In this document: positions 2,484-11,585 of the stretch, in pieces
How the letters are laid out: the number at the start of each line of letters is the position of its first letter
Position numbering within the stretch: the first letter of the stretch is position 1
From: a virus
Strand: one strand, 5' to 3'
IMG/VR virus record: IMGVR_UViG_3300046009_010241
Span: 1 to 33,386 of that record
DNA: 33,386 nucleotides
Position numbers and translations under genes: made by a program
The notes under the pieces: generated by a model
What the model was told of the DNA's origin: nothing
The model's input: the letters and a program-made list of their open reading frames with translations, nothing else
The model's database searches: none

Positions 2484-3035
2484 TTATTTTTGGCGTTTGT
2501 AAAACACGTGATTACCAATTTCTGCGGCAACCTTGTGTGGCCAACGTGGGTTGACTTTGATGTCTGCGGCATGGAACCACATAACATCTCGATCAATATT
2601 GGCTACTTTTTTGCCTTCTAAGAAAACACTCTTAGCGGCGATATAGCTGGGATTATTTTTGTCAATTACTTTGTTCTTGTTAGCACGGCTATCACAATAC
2701 CACGAGAATTGGCAAACACGATCACCTTCGACTACTGTGGTCTGTGCTACTACTGCACATAGATCATTTGGAAACAGTCCGCTCTTGGCGCGATTAACTG
2801 TGACTTGTGCTACTGCCATCTGCCCCGCCATAGGTTCACCATTGGCTTCATAGAATACATTTCGAGCCAAGCAGGTTAATTGTCTGGTAATCTTTGCTTC
2901 TTGTTGTTTGACTAATTTAAATCCAAAATCACTGGCTTCACTGCCTAGTGCTATTGGTGTTGCTGTTAGTGCTAAAACTGTTGTGGACATCATTGTCCAG
3001 GTTAGTATTTTTTTGAGACGTGAAAACTCGCTCAT
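2484..3035 (-). CDS. SleB-family cell wall hydrolase with N-terminal signal/anchor
   Basis: A 183-aa protein. Residues about 8-33 form a basic then hydrophobic segment (LKKILTWTMMSTTVLALTA) ending in AxG-type residues, suggesting export or membrane anchoring. Residues about 50-170 match the hydrolase_2/SleB family: LARNVFYEANGEP, MAVAQVTVNRAKSG, and CQFSWYCD, including the family's conserved Glu in YEANGEP. Such enzymes cleave peptidoglycan. It probably acts in host lysis or late wall remodelling; a signal-anchored lysin is the simplest idea. The ATG has a strong GGAGGG ribosome site. A CAAATAC box upstream is a weak late-promoter resemblance. The membrane protein gene directly downstream has its own promoter. 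Confidence 0.85.
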   Translation of the reverse strand: MSEFSRLKKILTWTMMSTTVLALTATPIALGSEASDFGFKLVKQQEAKITRQLTCLARNVFYEANGEPMAGQMAVAQVTVNRAKSGLFPNDLCAVVAQTTVVEGDRVCQFSWYCDSRANKNKVIDKNNPSYIAAKSVFLEGKKVANIDRDVMWFHAADIKVNPRWPHKVAAEIGNHVFYKRQK

Positions 3036-4937: not shown

Positions 4938-6145
4938 TATTCTATGCTAATAGTTGGAAAATATCGGATGAACACATCACCTTCACGGTCACGTTTATTC
5001 TTGATGTTCTTACGAATTTCTGTGAAGAAATTCCAAGCCAACGGCACAAACGCTACTTTAACATCTGCGTATTCATCTAACTTAGCGATAGGCACCACAG
5101 GTGTACTCATGCCTGGACTGTATAGACCTTGTTTAAGTGGATTATCATCGATGATGTAATCTAAGTGGATCTCACCAAAGTTTAATAATGTGTTACCTTT
5201 GGCCGCTGCACCATAACCCACGATCAGATAGTCCAGTGTACGATAGTGCATGATAGTCTGTTTCAGATCTTCAACGATAGTGCTAGCACGATCAGCGTAG
5301 TCGAGATACGTATTCATATCCTGCAAGCCCGATGCACGTTCTTCCGCTAACACTGCATCAACTCGACTGGTATCTTCGGCAATAGTTTTAAACACAAACA
5401 TATAGCTATTACCATGGATAGGTGTTTTACGGATATCAATCAAATACAATCCAGCACGACGAGCCAATGCGCTCATACTGCTGGCATTAAAGAAACTTAG
5501 GTGCTCATGATAGATAGTGTCAAACTCATTGTTACGGATCATGTCTGCTTGACTGGTTTGTATGAATAATACGCTAGTATCACTCATGATTTCTTTACAT
5601 TGTTTTAAGAATTCTAGCGGATAGCTGTTATGTGCAAACACGTTCTGCGCTGTGATAATATCCAACTGTTTCATTTTATAATGATATGTATATTTGTCTG
5701 TAAAGTAATCACATACCACTTCATGGTTAGCGTTGCTCAATGGATGTAGATTCTCTGCAGGATCAACTCCATAGGTCTTTAATCCTAGAGCTTTAAAACT
5801 ATTCAATTGACTGCCATCGTTACAGGCGATGTCTAATACCGTCTTAGCGTCTGGTGCGTATGTAAGCGTTTCTTTAGCGAACCAATCAAAGTAGTCACGG
5901 AGTGTTTGACTTGTGCCACTCACATATAGATAGTTCTTAAATAATAAATCTGGATTTACTGCGTGACTTAATTGTAAGTGTGTGCAGTCTTCACAGATAT
6001 TTAATCGTAATGGGAATGTTGGTTCGTCTTCCTCTGCTGTTTTCTTAAAGCTGTTAGCCAATGGCTGTTCGTTTAAGTCCAGGACTAATTTTAGTTTTTC
6101 ACTGCCACAGCAAAGGCATTCTTTTAATTCTTTAGCGTCTTGCAT
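4937..6145 (-). CDS. Zinc-binding NDP-sugar C-methyltransferase family
   Basis: A 402-aa protein with the three-part layout of sugar C-methyltransferases. It has an N-terminal zinc site (C10, C12/C13, C51, C54), a class I SAM-binding core with VLDIACNDGSQL at about 103-114, and a C-terminal domain containing VGYGAAAKGNTLLN and DYIIDDNPLKQG. The full length matches the family. It transfers a methyl group from SAM to a keto-sugar nucleotide, which fits the 4,6-dehydratase encoded upstream, as that enzyme makes a 4-keto-6-deoxy sugar. The start overlaps the epimerase gene by 14 nt. The product would be a branched-chain deoxy sugar. S-adenosylhomocysteine, the by-product, is the substrate of AHCY encoded at 9890-11176. 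Confidence 0.85.
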   Translation of the reverse strand: MQDAKELKECLCCGSEKLKLVLDLNEQPLANSFKKTAEEDEPTFPLRLNICEDCTHLQLSHAVNPDLLFKNYLYVSGTSQTLRDYFDWFAKETLTYAPDAKTVLDIACNDGSQLNSFKALGLKTYGVDPAENLHPLSNANHEVVCDYFTDKYTYHYKMKQLDIITAQNVFAHNSYPLEFLKQCKEIMSDTSVLFIQTSQADMIRNNEFDTIYHEHLSFFNASSMSALARRAGLYLIDIRKTPIHGNSYMFVFKTIAEDTSRVDAVLAEERASGLQDMNTYLDYADRASTIVEDLKQTIMHYRTLDYLIVGYGAAAKGNTLLNFGEIHLDYIIDDNPLKQGLYSPGMSTPVVPIAKLDEYADVKVAFVPLAWNFFTEIRKNIKNKRDREGDVFIRYFPTISIE

Positions 6146-7055
6146 GATCTTGTTCCCAATTATAAATTATATATTTGTCTCTCCACTGCGGCAAACTTTC
6201 TCCATAGTGCTCTATCAATCCATTTAATATCGTGTCTGGTGTTTCTTTAAATTCAAAATCGTATGTCTGTTCAAACAATCCTGTGTCTAATGCAAAGTCA
6301 TAGGCATTGGTAGTATTGCCCTTGTCTACTATCTCGGCACCAAGTTTCCTACTAACCGCTTCAGCTATCTCACCAACTGTGGCGTTAAAACTACTTAGGT
6401 TATAGATACCCGGCACTGGCTGTTCAATACAACGTTCTACAGCACGGCATAGGTCTTCTATACCTAACATGGCACGACTGATTTGTTTATTGCTGACCTG
6501 TATACCTCGACCATTCTGTACACTGTGAAACATGCTGTTGATCATCACATCAACACGTAGGTTAGCACTATATCCATTGACTGTACCAAATCTCAATCCT
6601 ATTACACGCTTGCCTGTTAAGTTAGCGATTACTGCCTGTTGATCTAGTGCATACTTAGTAACGTCATAGTTGTTTACAGGCACAAATATCTTGTTAGTTT
6701 CTTTGTGTCGTTCTCCTGGTGCACTATTACCGTATACGCTAGCACTGCTAGCATAGATAACCAATTGATCATCTAGCTTGTCTAATAGATTGGTAAAGTT
6801 AGTGACATTGTTTAACCATGGACCCGGAAGTGCTCCATTACAGCTTGGTACACTGCTGTGACCTGCAAGAACTATGACTACCTCAACTTCTGCTAATTCT
6901 TTCTTAGTTAGCTTGTGATAATCTCTGCGGTCACCGGTCTCATCATGATTAAACCAACAGATGTCGTTGGTTTTAACGAAATGCAGTTGTCTCAGGACTT
7001 CTTTGAGCCTTGTACCAATGTAACCATTGCCACCTAAAATTAATACTTTTTTCAT
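6132..7055 (-). CDS. NAD-dependent nucleotide-sugar epimerase/dehydratase (extended SDR)
   Basis: A 307-aa extended short-chain dehydrogenase. The NAD-binding GGNGYIG is at residues 8-14, the SSASVYG strand at 103-109, and the catalytic Y130-xxx-K134 lies in YDVTKYALDQ. VIVLAGHSS replaces the more usual NLAA segment. It probably reduces or epimerises the keto-sugar intermediate made by the 4,6-dehydratase. Its ATG shares one base with the previous stop (TAATG at 7055), and its 3' end overlaps the methyltransferase start by 14 nt, so it is embedded in the cluster. The exact sugar cannot be inferred. Confidence 0.85.
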   Translation of the reverse strand: MKKVLILGGNGYIGTRLKEVLRQLHFVKTNDICWFNHDETGDRRDYHKLTKKELAEVEVVIVLAGHSSVPSCNGALPGPWLNNVTNFTNLLDKLDDQLVIYASSASVYGNSAPGERHKETNKIFVPVNNYDVTKYALDQQAVIANLTGKRVIGLRFGTVNGYSANLRVDVMINSMFHSVQNGRGIQVSNKQISRAMLGIEDLCRAVERCIEQPVPGIYNLSSFNATVGEIAEAVSRKLGAEIVDKGNTTNAYDFALDTGLFEQTYDFEFKETPDTILNGLIEHYGESLPQWRDKYIIYNWEQDHARR

Positions 7056-7792
7056 TAGTCAATGATCATCATGCCATTGGGAGCGATATTACCTGTTAGT
7101 CCTACTGTTTCAAGTTCAACCAATTGGTCTCTTGGAATAAACTTACTCATCGCATGTTCATTGTCAATGTACTTGCCTTCGTTAAACAATTTAACCATAG
7201 TCTCAATGATGTCTTTATACAACTGCATGGCATTTAGTATCATAGCAGGAGTAAATGACCATAGGCGTGTTTGTAATAGAGTATTAACTCCTGTGTCGGC
7301 TGGATTGATCCAACTTGGTTGTGCTTTCTTAAACACATATTTGTCTTTGGTATTGTCGTTGCTGAACTTAGCAATATCGAACTTATCGGTTACTTGATAG
7401 CGACCGCTGAGTTTGAAAATGCGATCAGCATCTTTAATTTCATTTTTCATAGTATCATCACCAACAATAAATGTCAATGCCTTCAACATGCCCAGAGCTT
7501 CCATAGCGTTCTTACCAATGTCATAGTTAGTAACATTGTTGTGGAAGTATTTGATATCATTGTCGTCACTGTTGTCGATGTAATAGTCAACTGTGTCAAT
7601 TAGTTCTTCAAACTCTAGGCTAGTGTCATTCTGTACGTCAACTTTGCTGTTGTCTACCAAGATAACCACTGCGCCAGGAATGTATTTCTTAGCACTCTTG
7701 GCTGTTTCTAATGTTTGTTTGATACGATCCTGTGGATTATAGATACCATAGTTAGTATAAACTGCTGATGTTAGTAATACGATATTTTTCAT
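7055..7792 (-). CDS. Putative glycosyltransferase-like protein of the sugar cluster
   Basis: A 245-aa protein starting MKNIVLLTSAVYTNYG. The ATG at 7792 has an AAGGA site and lies just after the dehydratase stop; an upstream in-frame start at 7840 would overlap that gene and lacks such a site. The N-terminal beta-alpha pattern, VVILVDNSKVD (about 42-52) and ADRIFKLSGRYQV (about 122-134) look like a GT-A-type nucleotide-sugar transferase, a resemblance by pattern only. The C-terminal half has TRLWSFTPAMI and a conserved-looking IDNEHAMSKFI. It lies between two sugar-nucleotide enzymes. Glycosyltransferase is the best guess; function is otherwise unknown. Confidence 0.6.
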   Translation of the reverse strand: MKNIVLLTSAVYTNYGIYNPQDRIKQTLETAKSAKKYIPGAVVILVDNSKVDVQNDTSLEFEELIDTVDYYIDNSDDNDIKYFHNNVTNYDIGKNAMEALGMLKALTFIVGDDTMKNEIKDADRIFKLSGRYQVTDKFDIAKFSNDNTKDKYVFKKAQPSWINPADTGVNTLLQTRLWSFTPAMILNAMQLYKDIIETMVKLFNEGKYIDNEHAMSKFIPRDQLVELETVGLTGNIAPNGMMIID

Positions 7793-7800
7793 AGTTATCC

Positions 7801-8832
7801 TTATTCGCAACGTAGCCAACGGTCGTTCTTCAACGTCCATTCAACCACTTCACCGATACGTTCTGTTAAACTAACCTTAGGTTCCCAACCTAAACTGCGC
7901 ATGTAGTCACCACTCAGTGCATAACGTAGGTCATGTCCCGGGCGTGAGCTATGGAAGTCTACCATTTCATACTTCAATTCTTTTCCTTGCGCATCAGCGA
8001 TAATCTGTGCTAGTTGTAAGTTATTAATTTCTTGCTTGCCTACTAGATTAAACTTAGGACATTTAGCATCACCGTAGTCTGGTGCCAATGTAGTTGCATC
8101 TAATCCCAGCAAGAACATCATAGCATCTGCTACGTCTGCCGCATGGATATAAAAACGACTACCTGGAATAGTACGGGTTGCATCACTGTGGATAGTGATA
8201 GCATCACCGTCATTTACCTTACGAATACACATTGGAATAAATTTCTCTGGATGTTGGCGTTGACCAAACACGTTCATTGTATGTGTAATGTAGATAGGCA
8301 TCTTGTAGGTATTCTCAAATGCCACTGCTAGTTCTTCACCCCCAGCTTTAGTAGCTGAGTATGGATTGCTTGAATTATAACGATCACGTTCAGCGTAATT
8401 AACACCATTGGGTGCTGGACCAAATACTTCGTCTGTTGAGAAATAGATGAAACGTTCTAGATTTTTTAGTTTACGGCTAAACTCTAAGATATGGCCTGTA
8501 CCTACTACGTTATCCCAGACAAATTCCATTGGGAATTCGATACTGCGATCAACATGGCTACCAGCGGCCAAATGTAAGACATAATTCACATCACCAATGT
8601 CACGAGCTACCATTGGATTTAATTCAGCACGTAGATCATGGAATACGATCTTCACACGCTTTTTGGTTTCTGCATCAAAATCTGTCATCATATCTGACAG
8701 ACGATTTAAATTACCCGAGAAGTCTAGTCTGTCTAAGCTGACTACGTTCCAATCGGTATTTCTTAAAATATTTTCAATAACGTGGTGTGCGATAAAACCC
8801 GCACCGCCAGTCACTAAGACGGTTTTTGACAT
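7801..8832 (-). CDS. NDP-sugar 4,6-dehydratase (dTDP-glucose 4,6-dehydratase-like)
   Basis: A 343-aa extended SDR. GGAGFIAH (9-16) binds NAD and HVDRSI (93-98) is typical of RmlB. FSTDEVFG (131-138) supplies the Thr-Asp-Glu residues of 4,6-dehydratases, and Y158-xxx-K162 (YSATKAG) is the catalytic pair. It converts an NDP-hexose to the 4-keto-6-deoxy form, the first committed step for the downstream epimerase and C-methyltransferase. The ATG has a CTGGAG ribosome site and a late-type AATAAATA box 38 nt upstream, making it the probable first gene of the glycan operon. dTDP-glucose is the likely substrate by motif, but GDP or UDP sugars are not excluded. Confidence 0.85.
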   Translation of the reverse strand: MSKTVLVTGGAGFIAHHVIENILRNTDWNVVSLDRLDFSGNLNRLSDMMTDFDAETKKRVKIVFHDLRAELNPMVARDIGDVNYVLHLAAGSHVDRSIEFPMEFVWDNVVGTGHILEFSRKLKNLERFIYFSTDEVFGPAPNGVNYAERDRYNSSNPYSATKAGGEELAVAFENTYKMPIYITHTMNVFGQRQHPEKFIPMCIRKVNDGDAITIHSDATRTIPGSRFYIHAADVADAMMFLLGLDATTLAPDYGDAKCPKFNLVGKQEINNLQLAQIIADAQGKELKYEMVDFHSSRPGHDLRYALSGDYMRSLGWEPKVSLTERIGEVVEWTLKNDRWLRCE

Positions 8833-8870
8833 TGATTTCTCCAGTTTTCGTTGAATTTACTGCTTTAAAC

Positions 8871-8878
8871 TATTTATT
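8871..8878 (-). promoter_or_regulatory. T4-like late promoter box of the glycan operon
   Basis: AATAAATA on the minus strand, flanked by A/T, lies 38 nt before the ATG of the 4,6-dehydratase gene, leaving a normal leader with a CTGGAG ribosome site. It matches NATAAATA. Confidence 0.5.
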
Positions 8879-8900
8879 TTTACTAAAACAGGCGAAAAAA

Positions 8901-9074
8901 TTATGCTTCTTGTCTGTCTGCTACCGTGCGATTAACTTTGGTTTCTACGTATTCTTTGATAAACTTAATAGCTTTACGGCTAGTATCAAATACATACTCA
9001 CTGGTTTCATCTTCTTGTGTTAGGATCACTACGAATCCATTTGTTACTTTACGAATTTCAATTGAATCAAACAT
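8901..9074 (-). CDS. 57-aa hypothetical protein
   Basis: A short gene that length cut-offs tend to miss: ATG at 9074, TAA at 8901-8903, with a GAGGA ribosome site 7-11 nt upstream. The protein begins MFDSIEIRKVTNGFVVIL, predicted as paired beta strands, continues with acidic TQEDETSEYVF, and ends in a basic helix (SRKAIKFIKEYVETKV). The beta-beta-alpha outline and polar surface suggest a small soluble cytoplasmic protein. It has its own sigma70-like promoter (9108-9136), so it may be expressed early. I do not recognise a family. Confidence 0.7.
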   Translation of the reverse strand: MFDSIEIRKVTNGFVVILTQEDETSEYVFDTSRKAIKFIKEYVETKVNRTVADRQEA

Positions 9075-9107
9075 TTTTATTTCCTCTTATAAGATTATTA
9101 CCTTATA

Positions 9108-9136
9108 ATAGTAACAGGTTTAGATAAAAAAGTCAA
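9108..9136 (-). promoter_or_regulatory. Sigma70-like promoter for the 57-aa gene
   Basis: TTGACT (9131-9136), 17-bp spacer, TACTAT (9108-9113) on the minus strand, 33 nt upstream of the ATG and directly after a terminator. It may also read through into the glycan operon. Confidence 0.6.
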
Positions 9137-9137
9137 C

Positions 9138-9166
9138 AAAAAAGGCTACCGAAATAGCCTTTTTTT
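9138..9166 (-). terminator. Strong hairpin terminator, usable on both strands
   Basis: The stem AAAAAAGGCTA / TAGCCTTTTTT (9138-9148 and 9155-9165) has a 6-nt loop. On the minus strand the hairpin is followed by a T-run and lies 14 nt after the beta-barrel gene's stop. The symmetry gives a T-run on either strand. Confidence 0.85.
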
Positions 9167-9179
9167 GGTAGTTCTGCTA

Positions 9180-9770
9180 TTAGAACTTGATTGCGTAACC
9201 TGCATTATAACCAACGAAGTCACTGGCACCATAGCTACGATCAATACCTAATGTTAATGCTTGATCTTTAGCGATAGCATATTCAGCACCAAATCGCACT
9301 GTGTTTGTTTTTTCAATGTATGTGTCACTGAATGCATCACGGAAACGGTATCCTGCTTTAACTGATACTGCATCTGTTAAAGAGTATTTAATACCTGGTT
9401 CAACTGAATAGTATGTATAGTCTTGATTTGAAGTAAACTTCTGACCTAATCCGCCACGTGTGTATAGCGAGATGTCTTTAGTTAAACCGTATTGGTATGT
9501 AGCACCCGCTTCTAAACGTGTTGTGCTTACACCAGTATCATTGTTCAGACGTTCAGTACGGAACTGTTCACCTAAGTCAATTGTTAGATTATCTAACACC
9601 TTGCGGCCAATCGTAAAGTTAACACCTTGACGATTAGTATCAGCTTTGTTGTCAGCGATCGTGTCACGGAATGTGTATTGGATATGTGCAAAGTTTTTTG
9701 CATCTTCTGCCATTGCTACTGTGCTGAAAGCCAATCCAGCGATAAGTGTTGCGATTAATGATTTTTTCAT
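9180..9770 (-). CDS. Outer-membrane beta-barrel protein with signal peptide
   Basis: A 196-aa protein with a textbook Sec signal peptide, MKKSLIATLIAGLAFSTVAMA, cleaved before EDAKN. The mature part is alternating beta strands rich in aromatic and Gly residues (QGVNFTIGRK, TRLEAGATYQYG, VRFGAEYAIA), ending in a C-terminal Phe (YAIKF), the outer-membrane assembly signal recognised by the BAM machinery. About 175 mature residues fits an 8-strand barrel of the OmpX/OmpA-barrel class. An AGAGGAA ribosome site precedes the ATG. The gene is isolated between a hairpin upstream (9799-9829) and a terminator downstream. It would insert in the host outer membrane during infection; superinfection exclusion, receptor masking or permeability change are possible roles, none shown here. 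Confidence 0.85.
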   Translation of the reverse strand: MKKSLIATLIAGLAFSTVAMAEDAKNFAHIQYTFRDTIADNKADTNRQGVNFTIGRKVLDNLTIDLGEQFRTERLNNDTGVSTTRLEAGATYQYGLTKDISLYTRGGLGQKFTSNQDYTYYSVEPGIKYSLTDAVSVKAGYRFRDAFSDTYIEKTNTVRFGAEYAIAKDQALTLGIDRSYGASDFVGYNAGYAIKF

Positions 9771-9798
9771 TACTTATTCCTCTGTTTTTAAATTGTTG

Positions 9799-9829
9799 CA
9801 AAAATGCCACAAAATAAATTTTGTTGCAT
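9799..9829 (-). terminator. Hairpin with T-run between ahcY and the beta-barrel gene
   Basis: A near-perfect inverted repeat (11 of 12 pairs) spans 9804-9829, ATGCAACAAAAT / ATTTTGTGGCAT in minus-strand sense with a 2-nt loop, followed by TTTTT. It lies 61 nt after the ahcY stop and 34 nt before the beta-barrel ATG. It probably ends the ahcY operon, or acts as a 5' leader hairpin for the barrel mRNA. Confidence 0.6.
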
Positions 9830-9889
9830 CAAAGCCACGTTTTTATTTAGCCAGGTGGCCGAGAGGTAATAATATTACTTTATGATCTA

Positions 9890-11176
9890 TTAATAACGAT
9901 AACTATCAGGTTTATATGGGCCTTCCGCCGCAACGCCAATATACGTGGCTTGTTCAGCGGTCAAGGCCGTTAGTTCAGCGCCAATCTTGGCCAAATGTAA
10001 TTGGGCAACCTTCTCATCCAAATGTTTTGGTAGTAGATATAAGTGTCCGATATTGTAATTTTCAGTGTTATTGAACATTTCGATCTGTGCCAGTACCTGA
10101 TTGGTAAATGAATTGCTCATCACATAACTAGGGTGTCCAGTAGCACAACCTAGATTGACTAGTCTACCTTTGGCTAGAATGATAATCTTATTGCCGTTAG
10201 GTAATGTCACGTGATCCACCTGCGGTTTGATTTCGTCCCACTCTAGGTCCTGGATGCCAGCGATGTCGATCTCACTATCAAAGTGTCCAATGTTACATAC
10301 GATGCTGTTGTGCTTCATCTTCACCATGTGTTCACGAGTGATAACATCGATGTTACCTGTAGCTGTTACAAAGATGTCTGCCTTATCTGCGGCATAGTCC
10401 ATGGTAACTACACGATAGCCTTCCATGGCTGCCTGTAGTGCGCAGATTGGGTCGATCTCAGTTACCCATACCTGTGCTGATAGTGCGCGAAGTGCCGCGG
10501 CTGATCCTTTACCCACATCACCAAAGCCTGCTACCACTGCTACTTTGCCTGCGATCATCACATCAGTGGCACGTTTGATACCGTCCACTAGACTTTCACG
10601 GCAACCATATAAGTTATCAAACTTGGCTTTGGTCACTGAATCGTTTACGTTGATAGCACGTAGTTTGAATTTACCTGCGGCGATCGCTTCGTTAATCTTA
10701 TGGATACCTGTAGTTGTTTCTTCTGTTACTCCACGGATTCCTTCTATTAGATGCGGATGTTTTTCATGGATATACCAGGTTAAGTCGTGTCCATCATCAA
10801 GTAACATGTTTGGCTGCCAATCGTCGGGACCACTGACTGTCTGTTCGATACACCACCAGTATTCTTCTTCTGTTTCACCTTTCCAAGCAAATACAGGTAT
10901 GCCTTGATCAGCTAGTGCGGCAGCGGCGTGATCCTGGGTTGAAAATATGTTACATGAACTCCATCGGACTTCTGCGCCTAAGGCCACTAAGGTTTCTACT
11001 AGAACTGCTGTCTGGATAGTCATGTGTAGACTACCTGCAATACGAGCACCTTTGAGTGGCTGTTGATTCTTATATTCATCTCTGACAGAGATCAACCCCG
11101 GCATTTCTGTTTCAGCAATGGCAATTTCTTTATGGCCCCATGCGGCCAACCCAATGTCTTTTACTTTATAATCCAT
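9890..11176 (-). CDS. ahcY: S-adenosylhomocysteine hydrolase
   Basis: A 428-aa full-length enzyme. The start [14 protein letters not shown] at 11176 has an AAGGA site; an upstream in-frame start at 11215 overlaps the previous gene. Landmarks are [13 protein letters not shown] (51-63), [16 protein letters not shown] (73-88), [15 protein letters not shown] (178-192) with the conserved Lys, the NAD-binding GFGDVGKG (217-224) and the C-terminal KPDSYRY. It hydrolyses S-adenosylhomocysteine to adenosine and homocysteine, relieving product inhibition of methyltransferases. All key motifs look intact, so it should be active. It is the last gene of a unit starting with the omega-like gene; the gap to the QueF-like stop is one base. 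It is uncommon in phages, where it probably sustains SAM-dependent reactions during infection. Confidence 0.95.
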
Positions 11177-11177
11177 A

Positions 11178-11585
11178 TTAATCCTTGTGATGTTGCCATA
11201 ATGTGTCGGACCCACCTAAGTGTCCCCAGTCACTGTCTACTGCCATTCTACTACTTATACCTCCGCGAGGTCTATATTCAATTTCTATACGTATGCGATC
11301 TGGTTCATACGCTTTCATTAAATCTTTATACATAACATCTAATGCACGTTCATAACTTAATCGTGTATCTCTATATTGGAATATGTATTGCTTAAGACTT
11401 TTAAGTTCAATGGTCTTGTCTTTGCCGTAGAACCAAATAGTAACATCACCAAAGTCTGGTTGATTAGCACCGCCCAAGAATGTAAATTCTGGGATACTGA
11501 TACGCTGTTCATAACCACGTGCGGCATTAGGTAGACTTTTTAGTATGCTACTGTCTATACTGTCCCATAGTTTCTTTTCGCTCAT
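11178..11585 (-). CDS. QueF-like tunnelling-fold protein lacking the catalytic Cys
   Basis: A 135-aa protein matching type I QueF (preQ0 nitrile reductase): EFT (33-35), QPDF (42-45), the NADPH-binding QueF motif ELKSLKQY (60-67), a conserved Glu (E79) and RPRGGI (105-110). In QueF the catalytic Cys follows EFT-x-L; here that position is Gly ([13 protein letters not shown]), with the loop one residue shorter. The His that normally precedes the substrate Glu is Tyr (SYER). Asp44 of QPDF is retained. Nitrile reduction by the usual thioimide route therefore looks impossible. It may bind a 7-deazaguanine, do different chemistry or act in DNA modification. It overlaps the 64-aa gene by 4 nt (ATGA). 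Confidence 0.85.

Follow-up and report, generated by a model that had tools for sequence, protein, structure and literature searches.

A proposed exchange slot for outer-membrane barrel genes behind a late-type promoter motif in T4-like phages

Organization of the barrel gene locus

The window, by which we mean the whole stretch of DNA analysed, is a 33,386-base virus fragment from IMG/VR (IMGVR_UViG_3300046009_010241), and its source is a T4-like phage. It encodes UvsX, single-strand-binding and head-closure proteins, and its terminase is nearest (54%) to those of Pseudomonas phages of the PA5oct kind. The genes of the locus are all on the minus strand and are organized, in the direction of transcription, as an S-adenosylhomocysteine hydrolase gene (9890..11185; Pfam PF05221/PF00670), a gene for a predicted 196-residue outer-membrane beta-barrel protein (9180..9770, stop codon included), a 57-codon gene (8904..9074), and, beside it, a nucleotide-sugar epimerase gene (7801..8832; phrog_540). 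We refer to the stretch between the hydrolase gene and the 57-codon gene as the slot, with these two genes as its 5' and 3' flanks; close relatives keep the order hydrolase, barrel, 57-codon gene, epimerase. The hydrolase has 143 matches in IMG/VR as against three in annotated phage records, two of which are named 'Acinetobacter phage MD-2021a', and the one examined lies in a bacterial housekeeping gene neighbourhood.

The barrel reading frame is intact over its 196 codons, and dN/dS values of 0.13-0.20 against six relatives indicate a working gene under purifying selection. It is preceded by a ribosome-binding site, GAGG (9779..9782, minus strand), which appears as GAGGAA in 10 of 10 leaders. 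The product begins with a signal peptide, MKKSLIATLIAGLAFSTVAMA (9708..9770, minus strand), recognised by eye from the KK pair, the hydrophobic core and A19-M20-A21 ahead of E22, and it ends in a Phe that all 16 aligned members keep.

Downstream of the stop codon is a 12-bp stem with a T-run (9138..9165, minus strand) that we take as the intrinsic terminator of the barrel gene and as the 3' edge of an exchanged module, homology to relatives resuming at 9168 or 9164. The hairpin folds at -13.3 kcal/mol, and three of 200 shuffled sequences fold equally well; the terminator scan, which found one site where shuffles average 1.1, proves nothing by itself. The assignment is better supported by position, because in relatives the hairpin follows the stop codon and precedes the next promoter. 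In the window that putative promoter, a sigma-70-like TTGACT-17-TACTAT with an additional TG (9108..9136, minus strand), adjoins the terminator and would serve the 57-codon gene; such promoters are no more numerous than in shuffled sequence, and a TTGAC-type element occurs at the matching place in relatives. The preliminary description had put the 12-bp hairpin and T-run upstream of the gene, which the minus-strand orientation reverses.

Many relatives carry a near-invariant 37-nt element between the barrel stop codon and the terminator (for example L002, 8597-8633). It recurs next to the L010 barrel (7769-7805), whose surroundings are different, and, in the barrel-less L024, immediately behind the hydrolase gene (6607-6643); it is missing from the window. 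The element may mark a recombination seam or belong to a 3'-end RNA.

Promoter motif and leader

A T4-type late-promoter motif, GCTAAATA (9844..9851, minus strand), lies upstream of the gene, and the nine close leaders aligned with the window all have TATAAATA at the matching place. In the accessible parts of PMC2988020 and PMC1524935, TATAAATA is the T4-type late promoter form, and the late consensus of phage Aeh1 replaces TA by a/gC to give a/gCTAAATA. The window's form is thus not a private decay, since it is shared with L055, L062, L066 and L166, has a near form (ACTAAATA) in L076, and agrees with the Aeh1 consensus. Among 21 heptamers of the same composition, ATAAATA has the strongest bias towards positions upstream of genes, both in the window, where 7 of 8 occurrences lie ahead of a gene start, and in two groups of relatives. 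Contig G001, of 114 kb, has it within 110 nt upstream of 15 distinct open reading frames; eight of these were chosen for scanning, and six match virion proteins, including tail sheath and tail tube, and the barrel gene of the same contig has GATAAATA 64 nt upstream. Together the upstream bias, the virion genes and the barrel's own motif in G001 argue that this is the late promoter of the phage group, although the promoter of the window barrel differs from the ATAAATA form seen elsewhere in the window. From its position, the motif before the barrel gene would act as a late promoter.

Between the motif and the start codon is a candidate 5'-leader hairpin with 12-nt arms that are 92% complementary (9804..9829, minus strand). 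The region around it (9792-9846) folds at -12.6 kcal/mol, which two of 200 shuffles equal, and ten leaders share 14 consensus pairs, one of which has a two-sided compensatory change, so that covariation lends the hairpin weak support. It might attenuate transcription. A role as a terminator or insulator was rejected, as the hairpin was not called by the terminator scan and lies downstream of the promoter motif. The suggestion that the gene's expression is insulated on both sides accordingly stands for the 3' end, where there is a terminator, and falls for the 5' end, which has a promoter motif and leader in place of an insulator. We also rejected a tRNA remnant at plus-strand positions 9853-9866. 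We take the string there to resemble the opening of a serine tRNA, but ARAGORN detects no tRNA anywhere in the window, and these positions belong to the leader and differ from one relative to the next.

Contents of the slot in related phages

The slot was surveyed using the hydrolase (80 loci kept of the 143 matches) and the epimerase (80 of 595) as seeds, and among all collected loci there are 27 distinct sequences with both flanks on one strand. Barrels are found in 15 of them. Eight slots, the window included, hold the window barrel type, and one holds a distant small barrel relative together with AhpC. Four contain an unrelated porin of about 390 residues (Porin_4) alone, and two contain Porin_4 with a phosphate-binding protein, an OprP-type porin and a phosphoesterase. 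The remainder hold AhpC (four), a phosphoesterase with no recognised barrel (one), radical-SAM genes (one) or other content (three), or are empty, at 109-117 nt (three). These labels stand for the Pfam families Porin_4, PBP_like_2, Porin_O_P, metallophosphatase and AhpC, with 'phosphate-binding' our label for PBP_like_2 and 'OprP-type' that for Porin_O_P. Window-type slots hold no uptake gene, and no homology is detectable between the small barrels and Porin_4 beyond the signal peptide. On one phage contig (L337) a PQQ-dependent alcohol dehydrogenase gene (5453-7318) adjoins the porin.

The late-promoter motif goes together with the barrels. It is present in all 15 barrel slots, as against one of the 12 non-barrel slots (L121), with a Fisher p of 9e-7 that is a description and not a clean test, the slots being related and some near-identical. 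In 14 of the 15 it is within the first 260 nt of the slot; the exception is L341, where it is found ahead of the porin. Each of the 21 viral Porin_4 loci, several of them near-identical, carries the motif 64-111 nt upstream of the match start, whereas 187 of 6300 random 125-nt windows from the same loci contain it.

When 50 records were searched over their whole contigs, 15 had Porin_4, 16 had the small-barrel family, 19 had neither and not one had both. If carriage were independent, the lack of double carriage would have P = 0.0008, or 0.024 without the 10 contigs drawn by barrel queries; because the contigs are fragments, the lack of a second barrel carries little weight. Of the three empty-slot sequences, two belong to contigs with a porin at another site, and the third (L147, 88 kb) has neither kind of barrel.

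That a minority of slots are empty, or hold AhpC (four) or radical-SAM genes (one), is what would be expected if the barrel were a non-adaptive passenger, or 'moron', at a recombination-prone site and had no part in infection. We regard this as very improbable in view of the purifying selection on the gene (dN/dS 0.13-0.20), the retention of the motif by all 15 slot barrels, and the porins found elsewhere on the contigs of two of the three empty-slot sequences.

Probable exchange at the leader and signal-peptide seam

The 119-nt promoter-leader stretch of the window (9771..9889, minus strand) is common to porin-bearing relatives. It is 98.3% identical to the leader of L055 and 90.2% identical to that of L062, both of which bear porins, but only 71-80% identical to nine leaders that drive its own barrel type. 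In all of the relatives compared the identity of the hydrolase flank is 80-87%; for two of the comparisons the end points are off by a few bases. Between the window and L055, which encodes a 387-residue porin, 88% DNA homology runs unbroken from the hydrolase gene through the leader to position 9747 (codon 8), is lost over the mature parts of the two barrels, and is found again from 9168, next to the terminator. The first 24 nt of signal-peptide coding sequence (9747-9770, minus strand), which we take as the 5' edge of the exchanged module, are exactly those of L055, and the bases that follow match L003. This pattern is what recombination inside the leader and signal peptide would leave.

The L085 slot is empty: its homology to the window breaks off at 9875 and picks up again at 9164, so that L085 lacks the promoter, the leader and the gene as one block. 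The gene had previously been described as an inserted cargo unit, and both the absence of the whole unit from the matching site of L085 and its replacement by unrelated porins in other relatives bear this out. From these alignments, the site between the hydrolase gene and the 57-codon gene looks like an exchange slot for outer-membrane proteins. In L339-L341, L346 and L350 the OprP-type porin reading frame begins with a signal peptide resembling the one on the phosphate-binding protein in L344; here too a signal-peptide boundary may have been a site of exchange.

The predicted barrel fold

The window protein matches PF13505 (OMP_b-brl) with 34.2 bits against a curated cut-off of 28.7, and the profile is matched by 14 of 14 members of the barrel family (E up to 0.01). 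An AlphaFold model built from a 14-sequence alignment is a closed barrel of ten strands with a mean pLDDT of 81.8, in which the signal peptide is the low-scoring part. Its top structural matches are closed ten-stranded barrels: OpcA is best (PDB 1k24; Z 19.1, rmsd 2.3, 171 aligned residues, 11% identity), the designed barrel TMB10 has Z 18.5 with 17% identity, and there follow, among others, the omptins with Z 14-17 (Pla and OmpT 14.4-16.6). Matches in BFVD include entries named outer-membrane proteins, and the OpcA profile PF07239 is matched by one of 14 barrel members (E 0.0093). Profile and model agree in predicting an outer-membrane barrel, as the preliminary description had proposed from the signal peptide and C-terminal Phe, features that both hold up here.

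An omptin protease was rejected. Omptin proteases have catalytic Asp and His residues; the window barrel shares their fold, but its sole His, H29 in strand 1, is Gln in L020 and L021. A shortened general porin, considered on account of a match to Burkholderia Omp38 (residues 225-313, E 0.0015), is not supported: profile comparison with the phage porins aligned the signal peptide only, the mature protein has no detectable homology to Porin_4 (PF13609), and BLASTP beyond the signal peptide gave E > 1.

Relatives of the barrel and their contexts

Pattern-seeded scans of IMG/VR recovered 12 loci of the barrel family, then six and two more; the lowest identity to the respective query is 49%. In distant relatives the barrel is located elsewhere, either after a tmRNA gene or near endolysin-type genes. 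The former arrangement is seen in L019-L021, with the tmRNA called by ARAGORN (L019, 7501-7882; L020, 2453-2842; L021, 2330-2719), and in L010, where it was called by Rfam (6646-7085); the L010 tmRNA matches both the permuted and the betaproteobacterial families, which hints at betaproteobacterial hosts. In L017 the barrel is flanked by a FeoA-domain gene (7634-7852) and a fatty-acid desaturase gene (8628-9452).

The barrels of L018 and L045 have a GH19 endolysin and a cell-wall hydrolase no more than about 2 kb away, and each barrel is directly followed by a small exported Lys/Pro-rich protein (L018, 3647-3865; L045, 6585-6830) that has no Pfam or PHROG match. These two contexts and the late-promoter motif would suit a lysis-phase factor that weakens or remodels the outer membrane alongside the endolysins. 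They are two distant contexts only, however; the cell-wall hydrolase of the window (2484-3035) is 6 kb away, the porin slots likewise lack such neighbours, and we know of no outer-membrane lysis protein that is a barrel, all of which makes a lysis role improbable. The barrel gene of L045 and the gene downstream of it overlap, which shows that the barrel gene need not stand isolated; its characterization as an isolated unit is right for the window and close relatives and does not extend to L045.

Two seeded pattern scans of genome contigs, which need short exact peptide matches and which distant host relatives could therefore escape, returned no bacterial homologue of the barrel. There is one weak match on a plasmid (27.6%, E 0.01) and, among 50,697 phage records, one weak relative in an Ochrobactrum phage (25.6%); the L055 porin has no relative in the phage records at E 0.001. 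Within the reach of these scans recent capture from a host gene is not supported, and the earlier view that this is a host protein is left unproven.

Proposed function

The anatomy of the unit, as predicted from sequence, very probably consists of a late motif and leader, a signal peptide, an exchangeable barrel and a terminator. We propose that a phage sigma factor would start transcription at the slot promoter in the late phase, and that the host Sec and BAM machinery would export the barrel and insert it in the outer membrane, where it would maintain or alter solute passage while host porin synthesis is off. The infected cell would in this way gain a barrel of the phage's choosing once its own supply had stopped. 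Homologous recombination would swap barrels, with the shared leader and first codons as one region of homology and the terminator together with the 57-codon gene as the second.

Permeability is held to be the likeliest selected property because the other barrels of the slot are general porins, twice accompanied by phosphate-uptake proteins. For the ten-stranded member this is an argument by analogy, and we put it tentatively, at slightly less than even odds: a barrel of ten strands need not be a pore, since its structural neighbours include an adhesin (OpcA) and proteases (the omptins). In the model, 16 of the 61 strand positions of the extracellular half are charged residues, which may plug the lumen.

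The surface features bear also on superinfection exclusion or receptor masking, a kind of role raised in the preliminary description, in which the barrel would alter the surface, or occupy or displace a receptor, and so block adsorption of other phages or of the phage's own progeny on debris. The predicted surface location and the late motif would suit such a role, as would the swapping of unrelated surface proteins in one slot, which fits changing surfaces, and the fact that, of 15 invariant charged residues, 12 lie in the strands' extracellular half. However, if the barrel termini are periplasmic, as this sidedness assumes, the extracellular loops are only 3-9 residues long, and strand positions vary less in the extracellular half than in the periplasmic half (mean entropy 0.55 against 0.77; permutation p 0.02), the opposite of a diversifying surface. 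The Porin_4 and OprP-type occupants of the slot are transport proteins, and the exclusion genes of T4 are early-acting, not late. We consider exclusion, the main alternative to permeability, unlikely, though less so than a lysis role, and one protein could give both altered permeability and blocked adsorption.

Our preferred reading is that the barrel gene is one allele of a dedicated outer-membrane slot in this group of T4-like phages. The late promoter, the leader and the beginning of the signal peptide would be common to these phages, and unrelated barrels, one per phage, would be recombined into the slot at the signal-peptide seam, refitting the outer membrane with a pore suited to the host and the water, in some relatives along with phosphate-uptake genes. 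For this full explanation we estimate a probability of about 0.5. Previously, phage porins were known singly; a fixed late slot that swaps unrelated barrels would, if true, make refitting of the outer membrane a routine part of infection. It raises the questions of whether the late-phase cell gains a pore and whether swapping changes nutrient uptake, adsorption or lysis, and the shared leader offers a search handle for further phage surface proteins of unassigned role.

Comparison with known systems

OpcA (1k24) and the designed TMB10 resemble the window protein in being closed ten-stranded barrels (Z 19.1 and 18.5), but share 11% and 17% identity with it; OpcA has long loops, and those of the window model are very short. 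The Lom/Ail family comprises phage-borne outer-membrane barrels of eight strands, found in temperate phages, and is not among the Pfam matches of the window protein. Another small phage-encoded outer-membrane barrel is Phage_OMP (PF24653, 'Cyanophage outer membrane protein like beta barrel domain'), which is absent from the Pfam matches of the window protein at E up to 1 and which the L166 barrel matches below the cut-off.

Phage-borne porins and small barrels are thus already known (PMC8115048, PMC12197685, PF24653), while a search of the open-licence literature returned no description of an exchange slot for phage outer-membrane proteins with a shared late leader. The OmpL-type viral porin of ocean viruses lies beside glnK-amtB and is likewise a virus-borne outer-membrane barrel near nutrient-uptake genes; the barrel and its partners are different ones, and the accessible text of that report describes no exchange slot or shared late leader (PMC8115048). 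The porin of prophage DLP12 in E. coli, with the ipeX RNA, is also phage-borne, and its transcript affects a host porin; DLP12 differs in being a cryptic prophage and, in the accessible part of the source, is without a late-promoter slot (PMC12197685). The late promoters of T4-type phages have both forms seen here, TATAAATA and the a/gCTAAATA of Aeh1, and the difference from the accessible accounts of those promoters (PMC2988020, PMC1524935) is that here, judging by position, the motif would head an outer-membrane protein gene in an exchange slot.
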